Shown here one piece after another: positions 28,806 through 37,103 of a DNA stretch of 64,000 nt. Position 1 is the first letter of the stretch. Every line of letters starts with the position of its first letter. The notes under the pieces are model-generated. The model was not told the origin of the DNA and did no database searches. It saw nothing but the letters and a program-made list of their open reading frames with translations. The position numbers and the translations under genes were made by a program. Source of the DNA: Candidatus Binataceae bacterium (GTDB lineage: Bacteria > Desulfobacterota > Binatia > Binatales > Binataceae); the NCBI GenBank assembly GCA_036495685.1, contig DASXMJ010000163.1, positions 1-64,000 on the forward strand. The letters are read 5' to 3'.

Positions 28806-28943
28806 ACCGCATGTGAGTGGCACAAGGCCTGGCCAGTGCCAGTGCTTCCGCACCTCGAATTAGGGTCGATCCCCTCGCTTTTTCTTGCTCCCCTGACTCC
28901 GGTGCTTGCGGCGCTTTGTGAGTAGGCCTAGCGTCGATGAGGC

Positions 28944-29222
28944 GTGCCGCTCAGGACCAAAATCGAATGCCCGGAGTGCGAAGCCGATCTCGCCGTCAAG
29001 CGGGGCGGGGTGTGTCCCAACTGCGGCGCACGAATCTCCGAGCACGTCGCGCGTGTGCGGCGCCGCGAGCGTCGCATCGAACAGGTGGTCGCGATAGTCG
29101 GTACCGCGCTGGTGCTGGGGTTGTATCTTGCGACCAGCGGGGCAAGCTTGCTTGAAGGGGTCGCGGCATATGCGCTGGTGGGGGCGGTACTGTACTTTCT
29201 CGCCCAGCGCACTTTTTTTTGA
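28944..29222 (+). CDS. Zinc-ribbon membrane protein (intact copy)
   Basis: 92 residues from a GTG. A zinc ribbon (ECPECEADL and VCPNCGARI) at about 9-32 is followed by two hydrophobic segments, VVAIVGTALVLGLYLATSGA near 48-67 and AAYALVGAVLYFLAQ near 74-88. Looks like a small tail-anchored or two-helix protein. The second copy near 35.8 kb is disrupted, so this is the only intact gene. Unknown function. Confidence 0.65.
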   Translation: MPLRTKIECPECEADLAVKRGGVCPNCGARISEHVARVRRRERRIEQVVAIVGTALVLGLYLATSGASLLEGVAAYALVGAVLYFLAQRTFF

Positions 29223-29249
29223 TTTCGCTTGCAACTCTGGCGGCTTGCT

Positions 29250-29300
29250 CTAGGCCGCACGCCAGGCCTGGCGAGGTTCTCGATCGCTTCAGGAGCCGGC
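29250..29300 (-). pseudogene. Orphan 3' fragment of the LLM oxidoreductase gene
   Basis: Reads as the last 17 or so codons of the gene at 36087-37103, ending on the same CTA stop context, but with two single-base deletions (near 29271 and 29289) relative to the intact gene. The similarity stops abruptly at 29300. Evidence that the left repeat contains a cut-off piece of the right-hand gene. Confidence 0.8.
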
Positions 29301-29455
29301 TGCTCACGAAGCATAGACGGCGCTTAGAGGCGTGCGCGCTACTCGGCGAAATCTACGGCTGGTTCAACGAGGATTTCGATACCATCGATCTGAAGGACGC
29401 AAAATCACTACTGAACGAGGTTCACTGCATGTTAGTACGATGTGAGTCGTCCTGA
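29301..29455 (+). pseudogene. 3' fragment of a class III adenylate cyclase/ATPase-TPR gene
   Basis: Open frame read right up to the repeat end: TKHRRRLEACALLGEIYGWF then NEDFDTIDLKDAKSLLNEV, ending at TGA 29453-29455. This is the typical C-terminal end of large adenylate-cyclase-with-AAA-ATPase proteins (EIYGWFTEGFDT...DLKEAK). The domains that should precede it are absent, so it is a remnant at the left edge of the insert. Confidence 0.6.
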
Positions 29456-29886
29456 CGGGTACGGAGTACAGCGAAGGTCGGGGCGCTCTTACTCGCAAGG
29501 TCGTCAAGGGAAAGCTGCCGCCAGGGATTGTCCGGACACATCGATGCAAAGAGGCAATACTGCGGAGCCGGACGGAGACGGAGCGTTTCGCAAATCCGAC
29601 CCCCGTAGGGTTCTCGTATATCAGTTGGTTCATCAAGTTCTACCAGATTGTCCGCCAGGATCCTGATGAGAACTCCATTCTTCTCACTATGCGAGGCTAC
29701 CCGGTTGTGAAAATCACACGACATCTGGGGGACAGACGTTCTGAGGTCAGGGCGCTTTCGAGATCTTTTCGTGTTTCGCAATGGTATGCTGCCGGCACAG
29801 AAGAGTCGTCACCGTTCGGCCGCGACACCTTGACAGCGGTTGTAGAAAAATGGCTTCAGTCCGGACTGCGCACACCTTTTGTCTGA
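29446..29886 (+). other. Unidentified open frame lacking a start, possibly 5' truncated
   Basis: 146 open codons between TGA at 29443 and the stop at 29884, with no ATG, GTG or TTG before 29689. Translated, it contains FSYISWFIKFYQIVRQDPDE and MRGYPVVKITRHLGDRRSEV. The steady coding look suggests a real but truncated gene. It may also be a short protein starting at 29689. No family recognised. Confidence 0.4.
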
Positions 29887-29909
29887 GTGGAAGACAACGT
29901 CCAGAATCC

Positions 29910-29928
29910 GGAATGTAAAATACATTCC
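29910..29928. promoter_or_regulatory. Perfect inverted repeat upstream of the DUF4331 gene
   Basis: GGAATGTA, three A, then TACATTCC: 8-base arms, 3-base spacer, 20 bases before the ATG at 29948 and directly before its ribosome site (AAAGGGGG). Suits a dimeric repressor or a metal-responsive regulator. No regulator gene is within the insert. Confidence 0.45.
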
Positions 29929-29947
29929 TACTTAAAGGGGGACGACC

Positions 29948-31537
29948 ATGAAACGACTAGGCGCTTTAGCCGAAGATTGTTCTTCGCAACCCAGAATCCG
30001 GGTGCGTCTGAGCCTTTTGACAGTAGGGTTGGCACTTGGTTCCCTGCTCTTTTGGTCAGCCTCAGCGCGCGCGGCCGATCATCGGGACGCTCCAACCGTT
30101 GATGGGATTCCCCAGGGCGATGTCACAGACGTGTTTGCCTTTCTCGATCCCAACAACTCCGACGATGTCGTTCTGGTCATGAACGTAAACCCGTTTTCCG
30201 TGCCGGCCGAGCTCCCCGGTTACGCGTTCAGTAATGAACTGCTTTACCAGTTCAAGATCGATAACACCGGCGACGCAGTTGAAGACCTCGTCATCGAGGT
30301 GACTTTCACGACCACCAGCGCCGGCCAGATGGTGAAAGTCTTTGGTCCGATGAAACCGCAGGTTACGGGCACCCGCGCAGTTCTTCCGCAGGGGCATCCT
30401 AGTGTTTTGGGAGCGGTTAATACGGTCCTCTCCGGAAATGGAGGAATGACCGTATTCGCCGGTACGCGGGACGATCCATTCGTAGCCGACATCGGACAGT
30501 TATTCAGGATTCTGACGGGGGCCCAGGACGTCTTTCGTGACTATCCGAATGCTCCGCTTCTTGGCCATCTGCGAGGGCGCGGTCTCTTGGCAACTCCAGT
30601 GGGTGGAAACAGCGGCGTGGACGGGTTCGGCGGATTCAACGTCTCCTCTATCCAGGTCGAATTGCCCGCGTCGATGATAAAGGGAGCTACTTCGGAGGTG
30701 AACATTTGGGCGACGGTCAGTCGCCCAGTTGCCCAGACTCACAACCCGGGTGGCACGCACGATTCGGCCAATTTCCTTCAATTCGAGCGCATGGGCCAGC
30801 AATTGATCGCTACCGTTTTCGTTCCGAGCTCGATGAGAGACGCCTTCAATTTTGCGACGCCTGATGAAGACGTGGCGATGTTCTCGTCGTTGATTCCGAA
30901 TGCGCTGACTTCCACGGACCCGAGCGGTAACACCACCGCCCGCCGTGCAACCGTGCTTCACTCGCTCAAGCTGGACGGTACCGTCGTGGCGACGCCAAAC
31001 GGGGTCGGTGAGATCGAAGGTGCTCCACTGCTGTTGGGCAACAATTTTCAGAACACTGATCCAAATTTGATTCGCAAGGCAGTGCTGCCCGATGTCATCA
31101 GGCTCGACCTGTCGGTTACGCCCCCCAACGATATTCCACCCAAGGGCATCGGGATTATTGGTCCGAGCAACATGGTCGGGTTGCAGGATGGCCGTCGGCC
31201 AGGCGATGCGGTGACGGATATCCTTCTTCAACTGTCGCGCCAACTCGCCGATGTGACCTTCCCAAAGGGTTCCGGCCTTCCGGGGGCCTCCAGTGATGGA
31301 TCGGTTCGGCCCAGCTCGCTCGATTGCAGTTCGCTCCCCTGCCCTGACCGCCGTGTGCTCGCGGTACTTGACGGTACAGACTTCATCAGGCCCGACGTGG
31401 GCATTCTCGCGCTATCGTTGGGTGAGAGTGCTAACGACCTGCCGCTGAGCACGAGCTTCCCCTTCCTTGCCTCCCAGCATCCGCTTCCGGGTAACCCCGG
31501 CACGGTCGACTTTCCCCCACAGGAAGCGAACCCATGA
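29948..31537 (+). CDS. Secreted DUF4331 protein
   Basis: 529 residues. A long N-terminus leads to a signal peptide (LTVGLALGSLLFWSASARA, cleaved near residue 43). The mature protein starts ADHRDAPT and has DVTDVFAFLDPNNSDDVVLV then MNVNPFS, the signature start of DUF4331 (PF14224). The rest is beta-rich with Ser/Thr/Asn and Pro. Family function is unknown. Its neighbours are a TPR lipoprotein and two Ni/Co-type transporters on the same strand, which suggests a role at the cell surface in the same process. GGGGG precedes the start. Confidence 0.85.
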   Translation: MKRLGALAEDCSSQPRIRVRLSLLTVGLALGSLLFWSASARAADHRDAPTVDGIPQGDVTDVFAFLDPNNSDDVVLVMNVNPFSVPAELPGYAFSNELLYQFKIDNTGDAVEDLVIEVTFTTTSAGQMVKVFGPMKPQVTGTRAVLPQGHPSVLGAVNTVLSGNGGMTVFAGTRDDPFVADIGQLFRILTGAQDVFRDYPNAPLLGHLRGRGLLATPVGGNSGVDGFGGFNVSSIQVELPASMIKGATSEVNIWATVSRPVAQTHNPGGTHDSANFLQFERMGQQLIATVFVPSSMRDAFNFATPDEDVAMFSSLIPNALTSTDPSGNTTARRATVLHSLKLDGTVVATPNGVGEIEGAPLLLGNNFQNTDPNLIRKAVLPDVIRLDLSVTPPNDIPPKGIGIIGPSNMVGLQDGRRPGDAVTDILLQLSRQLADVTFPKGSGLPGASSDGSVRPSSLDCSSLPCPDRRVLAVLDGTDFIRPDVGILALSLGESANDLPLSTSFPFLASQHPLPGNPGTVDFPPQEANP

Positions 31538-31686
31538 TGAAACGCTGAACGCCTCTGATTAGGGCAGTTCCATGCGCAGGACCTTTGGGTGGCTGATCCT
31601 CCTTCTCCCGGTCGTTTGTTCTTGCACTTAAGAGCCACGAGCATGTTCTTCAACCGAAGAGTGGCACGCTGCCCTCAAAATCTGCC

Positions 31687-33042
31687 TTGGCTCTCAGCTC
31701 GAATCCTGCACCCGTCCCACAGCCGACCGGCCTCAAGCGGTACTCGACTCTGCCACCGAGCCTCCGCGCAACTCCTACCGACGGCGTGGTCAAGTTCTTT
31801 CAGTGGCGGGTGTCGCTCGATCCCACCAGTTACTTCGATTACGACCGGTTCGGAACGGCCTATATGCAGAAAGCGCGTGAAACCGGTGAGATCACGTACT
31901 ATCAACTTGCCGAACAAGCGCTTGAGAAATCCCTGCTCCTCGAATCAACCCATCCAGAGGCTGCTTCCGCCACTGCCCACCTTGCCGATGTCTATTTCGC
32001 GGAGCACCGATTTTCAGACGCGATTAGATGGGCGCGCCAGGCGCTCAGCTTTAAGACCGGTGACGTTTCTGAATACGCGACCATCGGTGACTGCATGATG
32101 AATCTGGGCGATTACGACGGAGCCCGCGTCGCTTTTGCTAACTTGATGCCCTCGATTTCCAGACCATATATGGGTCCCGCTCTCACCTACCTGCGCGAGA
32201 GCCGCCTTGCCGCGCTGGATTTTGCCGAAGGACGCGCGCTCCAATCGATTCGCCGCATGGAGAACGCTATCGCTGCGGCACGTTCGGCTGGCATGCGTGC
32301 CGAGAACATCGCGTGGACGGAATACATGCTCGGCAACGAGTACTTCCGCGTCGGGCAAGTCGCGAAGGCGGAAAAGTCGTACACCGGATCGCTAAAAGAC
32401 TACCCTGCCTACCATCGGTCTCTCGCGGGACTCGCTGAGCTGCGAGCCTCGCAGGGACATTTCGACGAATCGATTCGACTTTACCAGCAAGCAATCAGTG
32501 TCATACCGATGCCGGTCTACGTCGCCGAACTAGGCGACGTTTACGCGAAGACCGGGCGTACCGAAGACGCGAAGAAAGCGTATGATCTGGTCGAATATAT
32601 CGCGCGGCTCAGTACCCTGAGCCAATCAGTCTTCAATCGGGAACTTGCACTTTTTTACGCCGATCACGACCTAAAACTGGACAAGGCGGTCACGCTCGCC
32701 CACAACGAGCTGGCGGCACGCGAGGATGTCTATACTTGGGACACGCTCGCTTTTGCACTTTACAAGAATGGCCGGGATCAGGAGGCTGCCGCGGCAGATG
32801 TCAACGCGCTGCGCCTTGGAACGCGGGATCCGTTGCTATTCTTTCATGCCGGGATGATTGCGCACGCGCGCGGAGACGATCGAAGAGCGCGCCAGTACCT
32901 GCAGCGAGCGCTTGCTTTGAACCCTCATTTCCACGTTTTTTATGCAGACCAGGCTGGTCAGATACTTGATTCGATCGGTCCGCAACCAACTGAGCTTCTG
33001 CGGCGCGATCGCCCTCGCGAGGCAGCTAATAGACATCAATAG
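31687..33042 (+). CDS. TPR-repeat protein; its lipoprotein leader is out of frame
   Basis: 451 residues as read from TTG 31687, with about eight TPR units (AEQALEKSLLLESTHPEAAS, FDESIRLYQQAISVIPMPVY, ARQYLQRALALNPHF). A separate ORF at 31572-31631 encodes a textbook lipoprotein leader, MRRTFGWLILLLPVVCSC, then stops. One base changed near 31621-31628 would join it to ALKSHEHVLQPKSG and on to this frame. So either a recent frameshift or a sequencing error has cut the lipobox from the TPR domain; the protein would then stay inside the cell. Otherwise it should be an outer-membrane-anchored scaffold. Confidence 0.75.
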   Translation: MALSSNPAPVPQPTGLKRYSTLPPSLRATPTDGVVKFFQWRVSLDPTSYFDYDRFGTAYMQKARETGEITYYQLAEQALEKSLLLESTHPEAASATAHLADVYFAEHRFSDAIRWARQALSFKTGDVSEYATIGDCMMNLGDYDGARVAFANLMPSISRPYMGPALTYLRESRLAALDFAEGRALQSIRRMENAIAAARSAGMRAENIAWTEYMLGNEYFRVGQVAKAEKSYTGSLKDYPAYHRSLAGLAELRASQGHFDESIRLYQQAISVIPMPVYVAELGDVYAKTGRTEDAKKAYDLVEYIARLSTLSQSVFNRELALFYADHDLKLDKAVTLAHNELAAREDVYTWDTLAFALYKNGRDQEAAAADVNALRLGTRDPLLFFHAGMIAHARGDDRRARQYLQRALALNPHFHVFYADQAGQILDSIGPQPTELLRRDRPREAANRHQ

Positions 33043-33188
33043 CTATGGTCGACTCCTGTTCACCGATCATGATTTTCACTTTTGTCCTTGCGCGAGGTCT
33101 TAGACGGCTAGTGTCTGCAGGTAATTCTGAATCAAACGGTAGAGCGCAGGTAGTCGAACTCAGCAATTTGACTTCAAAGGTCCTGACT

Positions 33189-34871
33189 TTGACCTTCAAA
33201 CTATTCCTGCAATACGCCGCGGTGCTCAGCCTAGCGCTGCTTATGACATCGACAGCGGCCTTAGCCCATCCGATGGGTAATTTCAGCATAAACCACTACT
33301 GCAGGATACTTATTAGCCCGAACGATATTGAACTGGACTACATAATCGACATGGCCGAAATCCCGACCTTTCAGGAGATCCAGCAAAGCGGAATCGTCGC
33401 CCGCCCCGATGATCCCGCGCTGGGCGGCTATCTCGAACGTCAAGGTGAGACGCTCAAGCAGGGACTGACGCTGCTCGTCGCTGCCCAGCGTCTGGACCTG
33501 CACACCGTCGCGCGGCAGGTGATCTTCCCACCCGGGGCCGGCGGGCTGCGGACGATGAAACTCGGCTTCGTCTACCAGGGTACAATGCCGCAGTTTGGCG
33601 CTTCATCCAGATCGCTGCACTACGAGGATAATAATTACCTGGGCCGAGCGGGATGGAAAGAGGTCGTCGCGATCGTGCAATCCGGGGTCGCACTCGTTAC
33701 GAGTTCGGCGCCGCAGTCAGATCGCAGTCTCGAACTTACGAACTATCCAACCGACCTGCTCCACAGTCCACCACAACTTTTGCAAGCTGACATAACGTTC
33801 AAGGCCGTCCCAATGAGCAGTGCCGCCAAACAAAATAGCCGCACTACACACGGCTTCGGATGGCTCGACACCAGCAAAGTCCCGGTGCGGGTTGGCATAG
33901 GACTCGCGGCCAATCGTCAAGACACTCCACGCAGCGCATTCACGGATTTGATTGCGTCGAACCGGACCGACCTGGCGTTCCTGGTAGTTGCGGCGATCAT
34001 CGCCGCGTTACTAGGCGGTTTTCACGCGCTCGAGCCCGGGCACGGCAAAACCCTCGTCGCCGCCTACCTGGTCGGTTCACATGGGAAGGCGCGCCACGCG
34101 GTACTACTCGGCGGTATCGTGACCGCCTCTCATACGATCTCGGTCTATGCCCTGGGCATAGTCACCCTTTATGCTTCGCAATGGATCATGCCAGAGCAAC
34201 TCTATCCCTGGCTCGGAATGGCGTCTGGTCTATTGGTGGCCGTGCTCGGTCTCACTCTCTTCGTGCACCACTATCGAACCACGGCTTCACAGCCACATTT
34301 CCACCGCGTGCATGACGCGCATTCGTACCGCCACCTCCCGGGCGATGCGCACAGCCATCACCACGAAGACCACGGCTCGAGTGCGACGCTGACCCACCGG
34401 CATACCTGGTGGGGTGGGCATGTTCATCGTGCGGACGATCATTCCTACGCTGGCTCTCGGGTCCATCCAGATGCTCACCTCGACCACGAAGGGGATGCGG
34501 CCGAGCGGGGACGTCAATCCGCCGAAGACCCGAAGCCGCTATCGTTCGCAGGCCTTATCGGGCTAGGTGTGACGGGTGGGATCGTGCCCTGTCCCGCAGC
34601 ATTGGTGGTACTCCTTGGCGCGCTTGCGTTTCATCGCGTGGCGTTCGGAATCTTTTTGATTGTAGCGTTTAGCGTGGGTTTAGCCGCCGTGTTGATAAGC
34701 TTCGGACTTGCGATGGTTTATGCAGGTCGGTTAATGAGCCGGCTCGGCAGTCAAAGCTCGTTGACCCAGCACTGGTTACCGTTAGCTTCTTCCGCGGTTA
34801 TCACCACGGTCGGCGTCATGCTTACTCTTCAATCGCTGATCACAGCGGGAATCTTTCATATCGGAAGTTGA
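33189..34871 (+). CDS. NicO-type nickel/cobalt transporter with periplasmic N-domain
   Basis: 560 residues from TTG 33189, which has AAAGG eight bases upstream and yields a good signal peptide (YAAVLSLALLMTSTAALA). The frame is open from 33045 but lacks a ribosome site there. The mature N-terminal ~250 residues start HPMGNFSINHYCR. The membrane part has HALEPGHGKTLVAAYLVG near the start of the helices and GLGVTGGIVPCPAALVVLLG in the second half, the NicO (PF03824) motifs. Between them is a His/Asp-rich loop (HSHHHEDHGS) likely to bind Ni or Co. RcnA-type efflux is plausible, uptake is not excluded. Confidence 0.8.
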   Translation: MTFKLFLQYAAVLSLALLMTSTAALAHPMGNFSINHYCRILISPNDIELDYIIDMAEIPTFQEIQQSGIVARPDDPALGGYLERQGETLKQGLTLLVAAQRLDLHTVARQVIFPPGAGGLRTMKLGFVYQGTMPQFGASSRSLHYEDNNYLGRAGWKEVVAIVQSGVALVTSSAPQSDRSLELTNYPTDLLHSPPQLLQADITFKAVPMSSAAKQNSRTTHGFGWLDTSKVPVRVGIGLAANRQDTPRSAFTDLIASNRTDLAFLVVAAIIAALLGGFHALEPGHGKTLVAAYLVGSHGKARHAVLLGGIVTASHTISVYALGIVTLYASQWIMPEQLYPWLGMASGLLVAVLGLTLFVHHYRTTASQPHFHRVHDAHSYRHLPGDAHSHHHEDHGSSATLTHRHTWWGGHVHRADDHSYAGSRVHPDAHLDHEGDAAERGRQSAEDPKPLSFAGLIGLGVTGGIVPCPAALVVLLGALAFHRVAFGIFLIVAFSVGLAAVLISFGLAMVYAGRLMSRLGSQSSLTQHWLPLASSAVITTVGVMLTLQSLITAGIFHIGS

Positions 34872-34903
34872 ATGAGCACTAAAGTCACCACTCGAGGCTT
34901 TCC

Positions 34904-35722
34904 TTGAATCTGACTACCACAGCGCCAGTCGGAATCGCTCTGTTGGGACTGGTGATGGGTATGCGGCACGCCACCGACCCCGATCACGTCATTGCCGTAA
35001 CCACTATAGTAAGTCGCCAACATCGCCTTTCCACGACGAGCCGCATCGGAGTCATTTGGGGCGTGGGCCACACGCTAACCGTCCTAGCGGTGGGCTCGCT
35101 CATCATTGTTTTCAAAATCGCAATTCCGCCTCGGCTCGGGCTCGCGATGGAGTTTGCGGTCGCCGTCGTATTGATCCTCCTCGGCGTTGGCGCCGTCGCG
35201 GGCTTGAGTCGGAGAATTCTTGGACGAATATGCAGAGCCACCTCAGTTGCAAACGAAGGCATTCGATACTCACATGTGCATTTTGATGGCGGGTCTTCGC
35301 ACCGTCACCATTATGTTCACCTCGGTTCGCATGACCATGCTAAGGTGCATGTTGTGGAGGACGCGGTCGCGAAGCGATTCGCACTGCGCCATCCATTGTT
35401 CCGCGCGTTTATCGTTGGTCTTGTCCACGGACTCGCAGGTAGCGCTGCGATCGCTTTGCTCGTGCTGAGCGCCATTCCAGAGCCGCTTTGGGCAACGGTT
35501 TACCTGGTCATTTTTTGCATCGGCACGATTCTGGGCATGGGTCTGATCACCACTGCCATTGCCACCCCTTTCATCCTGACAACTGAACGGATGGTACGGA
35601 TGCATCAAAGTCTTGTCGCTAGCTCCGGGCTGCTAAGCTTCGGCTTTGGGCTCTTTCTCGCCTATCAACTGGGCATTAGCGATCACCTTTTCGGGGCGGC
35701 GCCGACGTGGAAGCCCCATTGA
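34904..35722 (+). CDS. NicO/HupE-like transporter with His-rich loop
   Basis: 272 residues from TTG 34904. GMRHATDPDHVIAVTTIVSR near 18-37 is the HX4DH nickel-transport motif. Six or so helices flank a central loop rich in His (SHVHFDGGSSHRHHYVHLGS). VGLVHGLAGSAAIALLVL follows in the second half. The gene follows the larger NicO gene by 32 bases. Having two dissimilar NicO proteins in a row suggests a two-step or two-membrane pathway, or opposite directions of transport. Confidence 0.8.
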   Translation: MNLTTTAPVGIALLGLVMGMRHATDPDHVIAVTTIVSRQHRLSTTSRIGVIWGVGHTLTVLAVGSLIIVFKIAIPPRLGLAMEFAVAVVLILLGVGAVAGLSRRILGRICRATSVANEGIRYSHVHFDGGSSHRHHYVHLGSHDHAKVHVVEDAVAKRFALRHPLFRAFIVGLVHGLAGSAAIALLVLSAIPEPLWATVYLVIFCIGTILGMGLITTAIATPFILTTERMVRMHQSLVASSGLLSFGFGLFLAYQLGISDHLFGAAPTWKPH

Positions 35723-35735
35723 GTCTCACCTCGCC

Positions 35736-36139
35736 CCAGTGCTTGCGGCGCTTTGTAAGTCGCCCTAGCGTCGATGAGGCATACTCCTCAGTACCAAAAT
35801 CGAATGCCTGGAGTGCGAAGCCGATCTCGCCGTCAAGCGGGGCAGGGTGTGTCCCAACTGCGGCGCACGAATCTCCGAGCACGTCGCGCGGCTGCGGCGC
35901 CGCTGAACGTCGCATCGAACAGGTGGTCGCGATAGTCGGTACCGCGCTGGTGCTGGGGTTGTATCTTGCGACCAGCGGGGCAAGCTTGCCTTGAAGGGGT
36001 CGCGGCATATGCGCTGGTGGGGTGGTGCTGTACTTTCTCGCCCCGCGCAGTTTTTTGATTTTCGCTTGCAGCTCGGGCGGCTGGCTCTAGGCCGCACGCC
36101 AGGCGTGGGCGAGGTTCTCGATCGCTTTCAGGAGCCGGC
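35736..36139. repeat. Long direct repeat, right copy
   Basis: Nearly identical to 28899-29300 over about 404 bases. It includes the broken zinc-ribbon gene and, in the intact LLM gene, its last 17 codons. Starts 13 bases after the stop of the second NicO gene. Confidence 0.9.
35781..36058 (+). pseudogene. Broken second copy of the zinc-ribbon membrane gene
   Basis: Matches 28944-29222 but has ATA where the left copy has its GTG start. It reads through to a TGA after the RLRRR segment caused by a one-base insertion near 35905, with further single-base indels near 35990 and 36020. The zinc site (ECLECEADL, VCPNCGARI) is still readable, with one change (Pro to Leu). Confidence 0.85.
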
Positions 36140-37103
36140 CGCGGCGTTCCTCCGGGGTTTTCGCAAAGGATGAGAACTGCAGAGCACTGGTGGTGACGCC
36201 CGCTCGTTCGAAGTCCTTGAGTCGCCGGGCGCACTGCGCGGGGCTGCCGAAGACGAAGATCTTCTCGACCATCCCATCGGGAATCGACTCGAGAGCTTTT
36301 TTCCGCTCGCCGGCGTTCCACGCCTCGAATGCGATACCGGCTTCTTTTTCGTAGCCGATCTCGCGGAAGAACTTGTTGTATTGCGGGACGGTAACGTATG
36401 CGGTGAGCGAGCGGCGGAACATTGCGCGTACCGTTTCCTCATCTTCATCGACCGCGCAGATGATCCGGCAAGCTACATCCAGCGTGGCGGGATCCTTGCC
36501 GGCTGCGCGTCGACCTTCGCGCGTTTCGTCAAGCGTCGCCGACAAGGTTTCCGGAGTGACAAAATTGACGATGACTCCGTCGCCGATTTCTCCCGCGACG
36601 CGCAGCATCTGCGATCCTTGCGCCCCGACGTAGATCGGCGGCGGAGTGTCGAAGGGCACGTCGAGGCGGAAGCCGTCGATATTGACCATTTTGCCATGGA
36701 GCGTGACTTTTTCGCGGCGAAAAATCGCGCGCAGTGTCTCGACGGTTTCACGCATCAGCGTGACGGGTTTGCGAAACGGGACGCCCATCCATCCCTGCAT
36801 GATATTGGGAGTCGAGATGCCGAGGCCGAGCACGAAACGGCCGCCGGTAATGAGCTGGGCGGTAATGGCGGACATGGCGATCAGGGCGGGCGGACGGCTA
36901 AAAACCGGAACGATCGCCGTGCCGAAGCGCATCTTTGAGGACAGCATCGCCGCAGCGCTGATCGGCGAGAAGGCGTCCGTAGTATACGACTCGTAAGACC
37001 AGCCCTCCGTGTAGCCGCAGCGGTCGGCGGTGCGCACGAGTTCCGGGAAGTGTTGGTGGGAGAAAAACGGGTCGAACGGAATGGTAACGCCAAGCTTCAT
37101 CAT
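36087..37103 (-). CDS. LLM-class (luciferase-like) oxidoreductase
   Basis: 338 residues. Opens MMKLGVTIPFDPFFSHQHFP and has the TIM-barrel pattern with GWSYESYTTDAFSPISAAA, LGLGISTPNIMQ and IPPIYVGAQGSQMLRVAGEI-like segments (PPPIYVGAQGSQMLRVAGE). The family uses F420 or FMN to oxidise or reduce alcohols, aldehydes or other small molecules; F420 is likelier in lineages with many such proteins. The last 17 codons lie inside the right direct repeat. Confidence 0.85.
   Translation of the reverse strand: MMKLGVTIPFDPFFSHQHFPELVRTADRCGYTEGWSYESYTTDAFSPISAAAMLSSKMRFGTAIVPVFSRPPALIAMSAITAQLITGGRFVLGLGISTPNIMQGWMGVPFRKPVTLMRETVETLRAIFRREKVTLHGKMVNIDGFRLDVPFDTPPPIYVGAQGSQMLRVAGEIGDGVIVNFVTPETLSATLDETREGRRAAGKDPATLDVACRIICAVDEDEETVRAMFRRSLTAYVTVPQYNKFFREIGYEKEAGIAFEAWNAGERKKALESIPDGMVEKIFVFGSPAQCARRLKDFERAGVTTSALQFSSFAKTPEERRGRLLKAIENLAHAWRAA

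Follow-up and report, generated by a model that had tools for sequence, protein, structure and literature searches.

What does a secreted protein of the DUF4331 family do beside genes for nickel/cobalt transporters? The question was raised by a stretch of DNA from a Candidatus Binataceae bacterium (GCA_036495685.1, contig DASXMJ010000163.1, positions 1 to 64,000 of the forward strand; the whole 64,000 nucleotides are referred to here as the window). A preliminary description had proposed that four same-strand genes encode a DUF4331 surface protein, a TPR protein meant to be a lipoprotein and two NicO-type transporters, here called NicO1 and NicO2, that together handle metal. We found that DUF4331 and TPR genes form a conserved unit in at least nine phyla, and that the permease encoded next to them changes from one nickel/cobalt type to another. 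DUF4331-TPR is probably a device, so far undescribed, for catching metal outside the cell and passing it to whichever permease is present.

All four module genes were found on the plus strand in the open reading frame (ORF) listing, as the preliminary description had placed them, and profile matches bore out the DUF4331, TPR and NicO1 assignments. The DUF4331 gene (29948 to 31537) encodes a secreted protein of 529 aa, in which an N-terminal signal or transmembrane segment is followed by an ADHRDAP...D..D motif. It belongs to PF14224, with 190.9 bits against a cut-off of 27 (E 6e-56) and two stretches that jointly span model positions 2 to 419. The TPR protein (31687 to 33042; 451 aa, frame open from 31597) matched TPR_2 at 7e-25. 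NicO1 (33045 to 34871) consists of a signal peptide, an extracytoplasmic beta domain and an RcnA-like transmembrane domain. It is a member of the NicO family PF03824 (43.7 bits, cut-off 27.7, E 2.8e-11; model positions 3 to 284 of 287) and carries the RcnA-type motifs HALEPGHGKT, at residue 327, and PCPAA, while its score against the RcnA efflux model PRK10019 (122.5 bits, E 1.9e-35) lies below the cut-off of 195. A His-rich loop with 18 His in 85 residues is situated between its transmembrane segments (34275 to 34529, plus strand).

To survey the neighborhood of DUF4331, species genomes were searched, yielding 63 loci, and Pfam-based searches were run in the phyla of genomes G299 and G298 (hits in 32 of the 201 and 35 of the 249 genomes, respectively), which supplied most of the 59 regions read, plus further copies. 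This survey had been set beforehand as the check that could refute the module, and the refutation failed. The DUF4331-TPR-permease arrangement is among the most constant traits of the loci and recurs in Cyanobacteria, Acidobacteriota, Gemmatimonadota, Armatimonadota, Eremiobacterota, Actinomycetota, Bacteroidota, Rokubacteria and Pseudomonadota, that is, in at least nine phyla, and a matching arrangement is present on annotated plasmids of Nostoc, Streptomyces, Miltoncostaea and Adhaeribacter. A TPR gene lies directly 3' of DUF4331 in 95 of the 104 loci with room for one (19/21, 25/30 and 51/53 by set).

The position directly after the TPR gene, or before DUF4331 in some Eremiobacterota, is a permease slot. 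Counted by homology to Pfam-checked examples, with detection models built from these same loci, an adjacent permease was present in 71 of the 98 loci whose sequence extended far enough (Armatimonadota, 13/19; Gemmatimonadota, 16/29; genome_contigs loci, 42/50). The 542 kb of sequence lying no farther than 2.5 kb from the DUF4331/TPR block contained 75 permease ORFs, 63 of them immediately 3' on the same strand; the 953 kb beyond contained none. Occupants confirmed by Pfam on representatives were RcnA-like NicO bearing the outer domain, HoxN-type NicO (L211, 5e-22), HupE/UreJ (HupE_UreJ_2, 5e-45) and CbiM-CbiQ-CbiO. The last is represented by CbiM-PDGLE-CbiQ and an ABC ATPase (2e-51) that follow DUF4331-TPR at L049:12831-15591, L172:3024-5724 and L173:3598-6265. 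On pRL3b4 of the tractable organism Rhizobium leguminosarum (L232:6917-8586), HupE_UreJ (2e-48) comes directly after DUF4331, without a TPR gene. The HupE proteins of five loci (L031, L161, L168, L175 and L183) have an N-terminal domain, and a His-first DUF6702 protein follows HupE in Gemmatimonadota (L023 and L029; L034 by eye). In several diderms, TonB-dependent receptors are encoded next to the unit. Since different nickel/cobalt permeases swap in one slot, a metal function is much firmer than it would be from adjacency in a single genome.

Distances among DUF4331, TPR and NicO1 proteins correlated across 32 loci (r = 0.84, 0.63 and 0.80), and none of 2,000 permutations reached values as high. 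This shows co-inheritance, which is not function by itself.

NicO2 (34904 to 35722) is a NicO/UreH-like permease with the motif RHATDPDH and a shorter His-rich loop (9 His in 35 residues). At 21.9 bits it did not reach the NicO cut-off of 27.7 and is termed NicO-like only; a homologue in L019 scored 31.7 bits. The proposal of two NicO-type transporters with His-rich loops stands for both loops and for the family of NicO1, with a weaker family assignment for NicO2. Four loci of the Acidobacteria type encode NicO1 and NicO2 as a single protein of about 790 to 890 aa, in the gene order of the window (L014:12665-15346, L015:12688-15063, L016:12607-15276 and L017:12700-15132), and NicO2 is 45 to 47% identical to the C-terminal half of the fusion. 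It is a separate gene in L019, L069 and L171. Being found in few loci and sometimes fused, NicO2 is outside the conserved core. The idea of a DUF4331 surface protein working with nickel/cobalt flux is partly supported, by the recurring unit and its exchangeable permeases, without the second NicO gene as a fixed part. The sole further NicO-like gene found in the window genome (L079, G000:C228:25045-25605) belongs to an open frame of 397 residues, about 165 of which form an N-terminal extension.

The extracytoplasmic domain of NicO1 (33267 to 33830, plus strand) begins with His75, the first residue of the mature protein (A|HPMGNF), as judged from a cleavage site read by eye; A74, H75 and P76 are invariant in 26 sequences. 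In a structural model with a pLDDT of 73.5, the best fold match of this domain was the Ang-1 domain of a HupE/UreJ-2 permease with Cu bound (9gce). Foldseek gave a probability of 1.00, an E value of 3.4e-3 and a TM of 0.42 by target, and VIA gave a Z of 9.2 over 144 residues (root mean square deviation of 5.0, 9% identity), the sole row at a Z of 8 or more. The next matches were the zinc proteins ZrgA (VIA Z of 7.6) and PA4063 (Z of 6.6). The outer domain thus resembles the Ang-type beta-sandwich in fold and has a His directly after the signal peptide, while the attached permease is NicO, with no PF13795 (HupE/UreJ-2). Profile comparison with HupE outer domains of the surveyed loci gave an equivocal match, with a probability of 61 and an E value of 8e-5 at 10% identity, and the NicO1 profile found chance-level matches only among PDB sequences. 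In the signal-strapping work of 2025, His-first domains were shown to bind metals and proposed to fish metal for the permease (PMC12537917). DUF6702 and DUF4198 are described there as metal binders, DUF6702 through its N-terminal His (PMC12537917).

DUF4331 itself is rich in conserved acidic residues: H45, D58, D61, D105, D176, D181, D308, D424 and D467 are invariant in 28 sequences, including a single His. A model of the protein (pLDDT 72, pTM 0.77) matched nothing at an E value of 0.001 or less among PDB and viral models, the best values being 0.011 to 0.012, and its profile gave chance-level matches only against PDB sequences. Immunoglobulin-like VIA rows with a Z of about 7 were set aside as background for such models. 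Two adjacent ORFs make up DUF4331 in Gemmatimonadota and in most Armatimonadota, which is consistent with a two-domain protein. A literature search of 5.39 million papers found no mention of DUF4331 or PF14224, though the identical search finds DUF6702; it covered neither subscription papers nor preprints.

We propose that the module serves metal acquisition at the cell envelope and feeds interchangeable importers of the nickel/cobalt class, a reading to which we assign a probability of roughly 0.57. Secreted, two-domain DUF4331 and the exported TPR protein, often anchored by lipid or a membrane segment, would act as a pair in the envelope, either capturing a transition metal of this class or handing it on, and the metal would pass to the inner-membrane permease encoded alongside. 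The role of TPR would be to tether DUF4331 at the envelope or the permease. In the window, NicO1 would be the permease, with its own outer domain as metal receiver, and NicO2 a partner permease. The parts of this proposal differ in strength. That the unit handles metal as such is very likely, and nickel or cobalt is a reasonably likely metal. Uptake is likewise favored as the direction, since importers make up three of the four permease types and TonB receptors occur nearby: CbiMQO, HoxN-type and HupE systems import, and RcnA is an exporter. A wider formulation, which we advance tentatively and regard as somewhat doubtful, is that DUF4331 and TPR make up a portable extracellular complex for metal capture and delivery in monoderms and diderms that docks to four nickel/cobalt permease types, with a TonB receptor in diderms.

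Several observations weigh against this proposal. The transmembrane part of NicO1 is closest to RcnA, an exporter, and no recognized permease adjoins about 30 to 45% of DUF4331 loci in two phyla. An Rfam scan turned up no cobalamin or NiCo riboswitch close to the module in the window or at 18 further loci. A genome model search found neither a NiFe hydrogenase nor a convincing urease in the window genome; partial urease matches near the cut-off were taken as amidohydrolase cross-hits. As this genome does have B12-binding proteins, cobalt is a plausible metal there. The window's TPR gene is also frameshifted. A signal peptide with a lipobox-like end (MRRTFGWLILLLPVVCSCT*; 31572 to 31631, plus strand) was seen in three-frame translation, its ATG at 31572 lying one base out of frame with the TPR body, which has no usable signal and no lipobox in frame. 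The copy is therefore damaged at this point or wrongly assembled, and the window module may not be fully functional. The protein is 50% identical to the Rokubacteria homologue at the matching position, and a crude scan of relatives' TPR proteins gave lipobox-type starts in 11 and other signal or transmembrane starts in 69. The suggestion that the TPR protein was meant to be a lipoprotein thus holds as to intent, a lipobox-type signal being encoded upstream, and fails for the window copy as read, through a one-base frameshift or an assembly error.

The export character of RcnA leads to a reading in which NicO1 expels excess nickel or cobalt and DUF4331 and TPR sequester the exported metal at the cell surface. 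The PRK10019 match at 1.9e-35 and the HALEPGHGKT and PCPAA motifs agree with such detoxification, as does a location on plasmids and islands that is typical of resistance genes. We nevertheless consider it unlikely: the same slot also holds CbiM-CbiQ-CbiO, HoxN-type and HupE importers, TonB receptors flank several loci, the NicO1 outer domain resembles a metal-capture domain, and no regulator of metal efflux stood out next to the unit, in what was not a systematic search for regulators. It is also improbable that DUF4331 is an extracellular metalloenzyme with TPR as its assembly factor and the permease supplying or retrieving its metal. The protein shows no resemblance to a catalytic family in sequence or fold searches and its neighborhood gives no pointer to a substrate, although its many invariant Asp and His residues, the several divergent paralogues in some genomes and the frequent role of TPR proteins as assembly factors would suit an enzyme.

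The identity of the metal and the reality of the association can be questioned as well. That the permeases carry, and the unit serves, another metal such as copper or zinc would agree with the Cu-bound state of the matched Ang-1 structure and with the zinc proteins ZrgA and PA4063 as next matches, and the specificity of HupE_UreJ_2 has been tested in few cases. CbiM/PDGLE and HoxN-type NicO families are nickel/cobalt specific, however, and the remaining slot families likewise carry a nickel/cobalt transporter annotation, which makes this quite improbable. That the genes share no joint function and sit together by chance, or through passive co-inheritance on mobile DNA, is highly improbable. 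Such a reading could appeal to the position of the window copy on an inserted segment, but it is already contradicted by the survey, with a gene order kept in at least nine phyla, 75 permease ORFs near the block and 0 far from it, replacement of the permease by other types and a NicO1-NicO2 fusion. Envelope metal acquisition is retained as the preferred explanation.

The module occupies a segment (29311 to 35724) that is missing from a genome of the same genus, G755. It is bracketed by direct repeats of about 420 bp that are 92% identical and have no further copies in the genome. The left repeat (28888 to 29310, plus strand) contains a small zinc-ribbon ORF (28944 to 29222) and the 3' tail region of the neighboring LLM oxidoreductase gene; the right repeat (35725 to 36142, plus strand) contains a decayed zinc-ribbon copy and the same tail. 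In G755, the zinc-ribbon region is present in single copy and directly adjoins the LLM gene, the HscB/DnaK side is shared further out, and DUF4331 was not found anywhere in the genome. The empty site in a close relative and the flanking repeats are as a mobile insertion would leave them, which supports the earlier description of a mobile-looking insert. No integrase or transposase was recognized among the ORFs of 29311 to 35724, for which no mobile-element library was searched. The left zinc-ribbon copy is intact and 81% identical to the relative's gene, whereas the right copy (35725 to 36060) is decayed by small indels and 77% identical. DUF4331 is rare in the window's phylum (5 of 297 genomes), and for each of the module's three core proteins the nearest of the compared loci is Rokubacteria L020. 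Horizontal acquisition of the module is the most likely origin. Between the left repeat and DUF4331, open remnants without a start (29300 to 29886) perhaps represent a truncated neighbor brought by the insertion; neither open frame (29300 to 29452 and 29446 to 29886) had a family match.

DUF4331 genes also occur in multiple copies. One Eremiobacterota genome of 2.6 Mb (G302) holds five (C14, C8, C7, C6 and C2); NicO1 lies upstream of two of these, and for one a HoxN-type NicO comes after TPR. On Streptomyces plasmids, a second DUF4331 gene is located a few kilobases past the unit (L008:11495-15076 and L234:14049-14816), in L008 adjoining a sortase and a fasciclin-domain protein. Weak DUF4331 relatives in the window's phylum (L074 to L076) have no TPR or permease alongside; some DUF4331 subfamilies therefore take no part.

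Bacterial capture of scarce nickel or cobalt outside the cell is poorly known. Permease exchange gives DUF4331, a family spread over many phyla, a concrete and testable function in trace-metal handling. If the wider formulation is true, the portable DUF4331-TPR complex would be a new class of metal-scavenging surface protein with a role comparable to that of a hemophore. Culturable hosts with the unit include Rhizobium, Streptomyces, Nostoc and Granulicella.

Among known systems, CbiMNQO and NikMNQO with DUF4198 outer proteins likewise combine an extracytoplasmic metal-binding protein (DUF4198, PMC12537917), a part in which DUF4331 would correspond by putative binding, with a nickel/cobalt permease and TonB receptors nearby. 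DUF4331 and DUF4198 are separate Pfam families, however, and the ties of the DUF4331 unit are to TPR and four types of permease. ZrgA and PA4063 form a second tier of fold matches to the NicO1 outer domain, but these free periplasmic zinc proteins have no permease fusion and share a fold resemblance only. With RcnA and other NicO transporters (PF03824, PRK10019), NicO1 shares the transmembrane core and motifs; it differs in an extra outer domain of about 190 residues, a score below the RcnA equivalog cut-off and other genomic partners. The anglerase-HupE/UreJ-2 permeases (Ang-1 and Ang-2; PMC12537917) resemble NicO1 in the signal peptide, the mature N-terminal His and the coupling of a beta-sandwich outer domain to a permease of the nickel class. 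In the window, by contrast, the permease is an RcnA-like NicO rather than HupE, and the module adds DUF4331 and TPR, neither of which is mentioned in PMC12537917. To the anglerase-HupE permeases, which were published in 2025, NicO1 adds a counterpart carried on a NicO permease.

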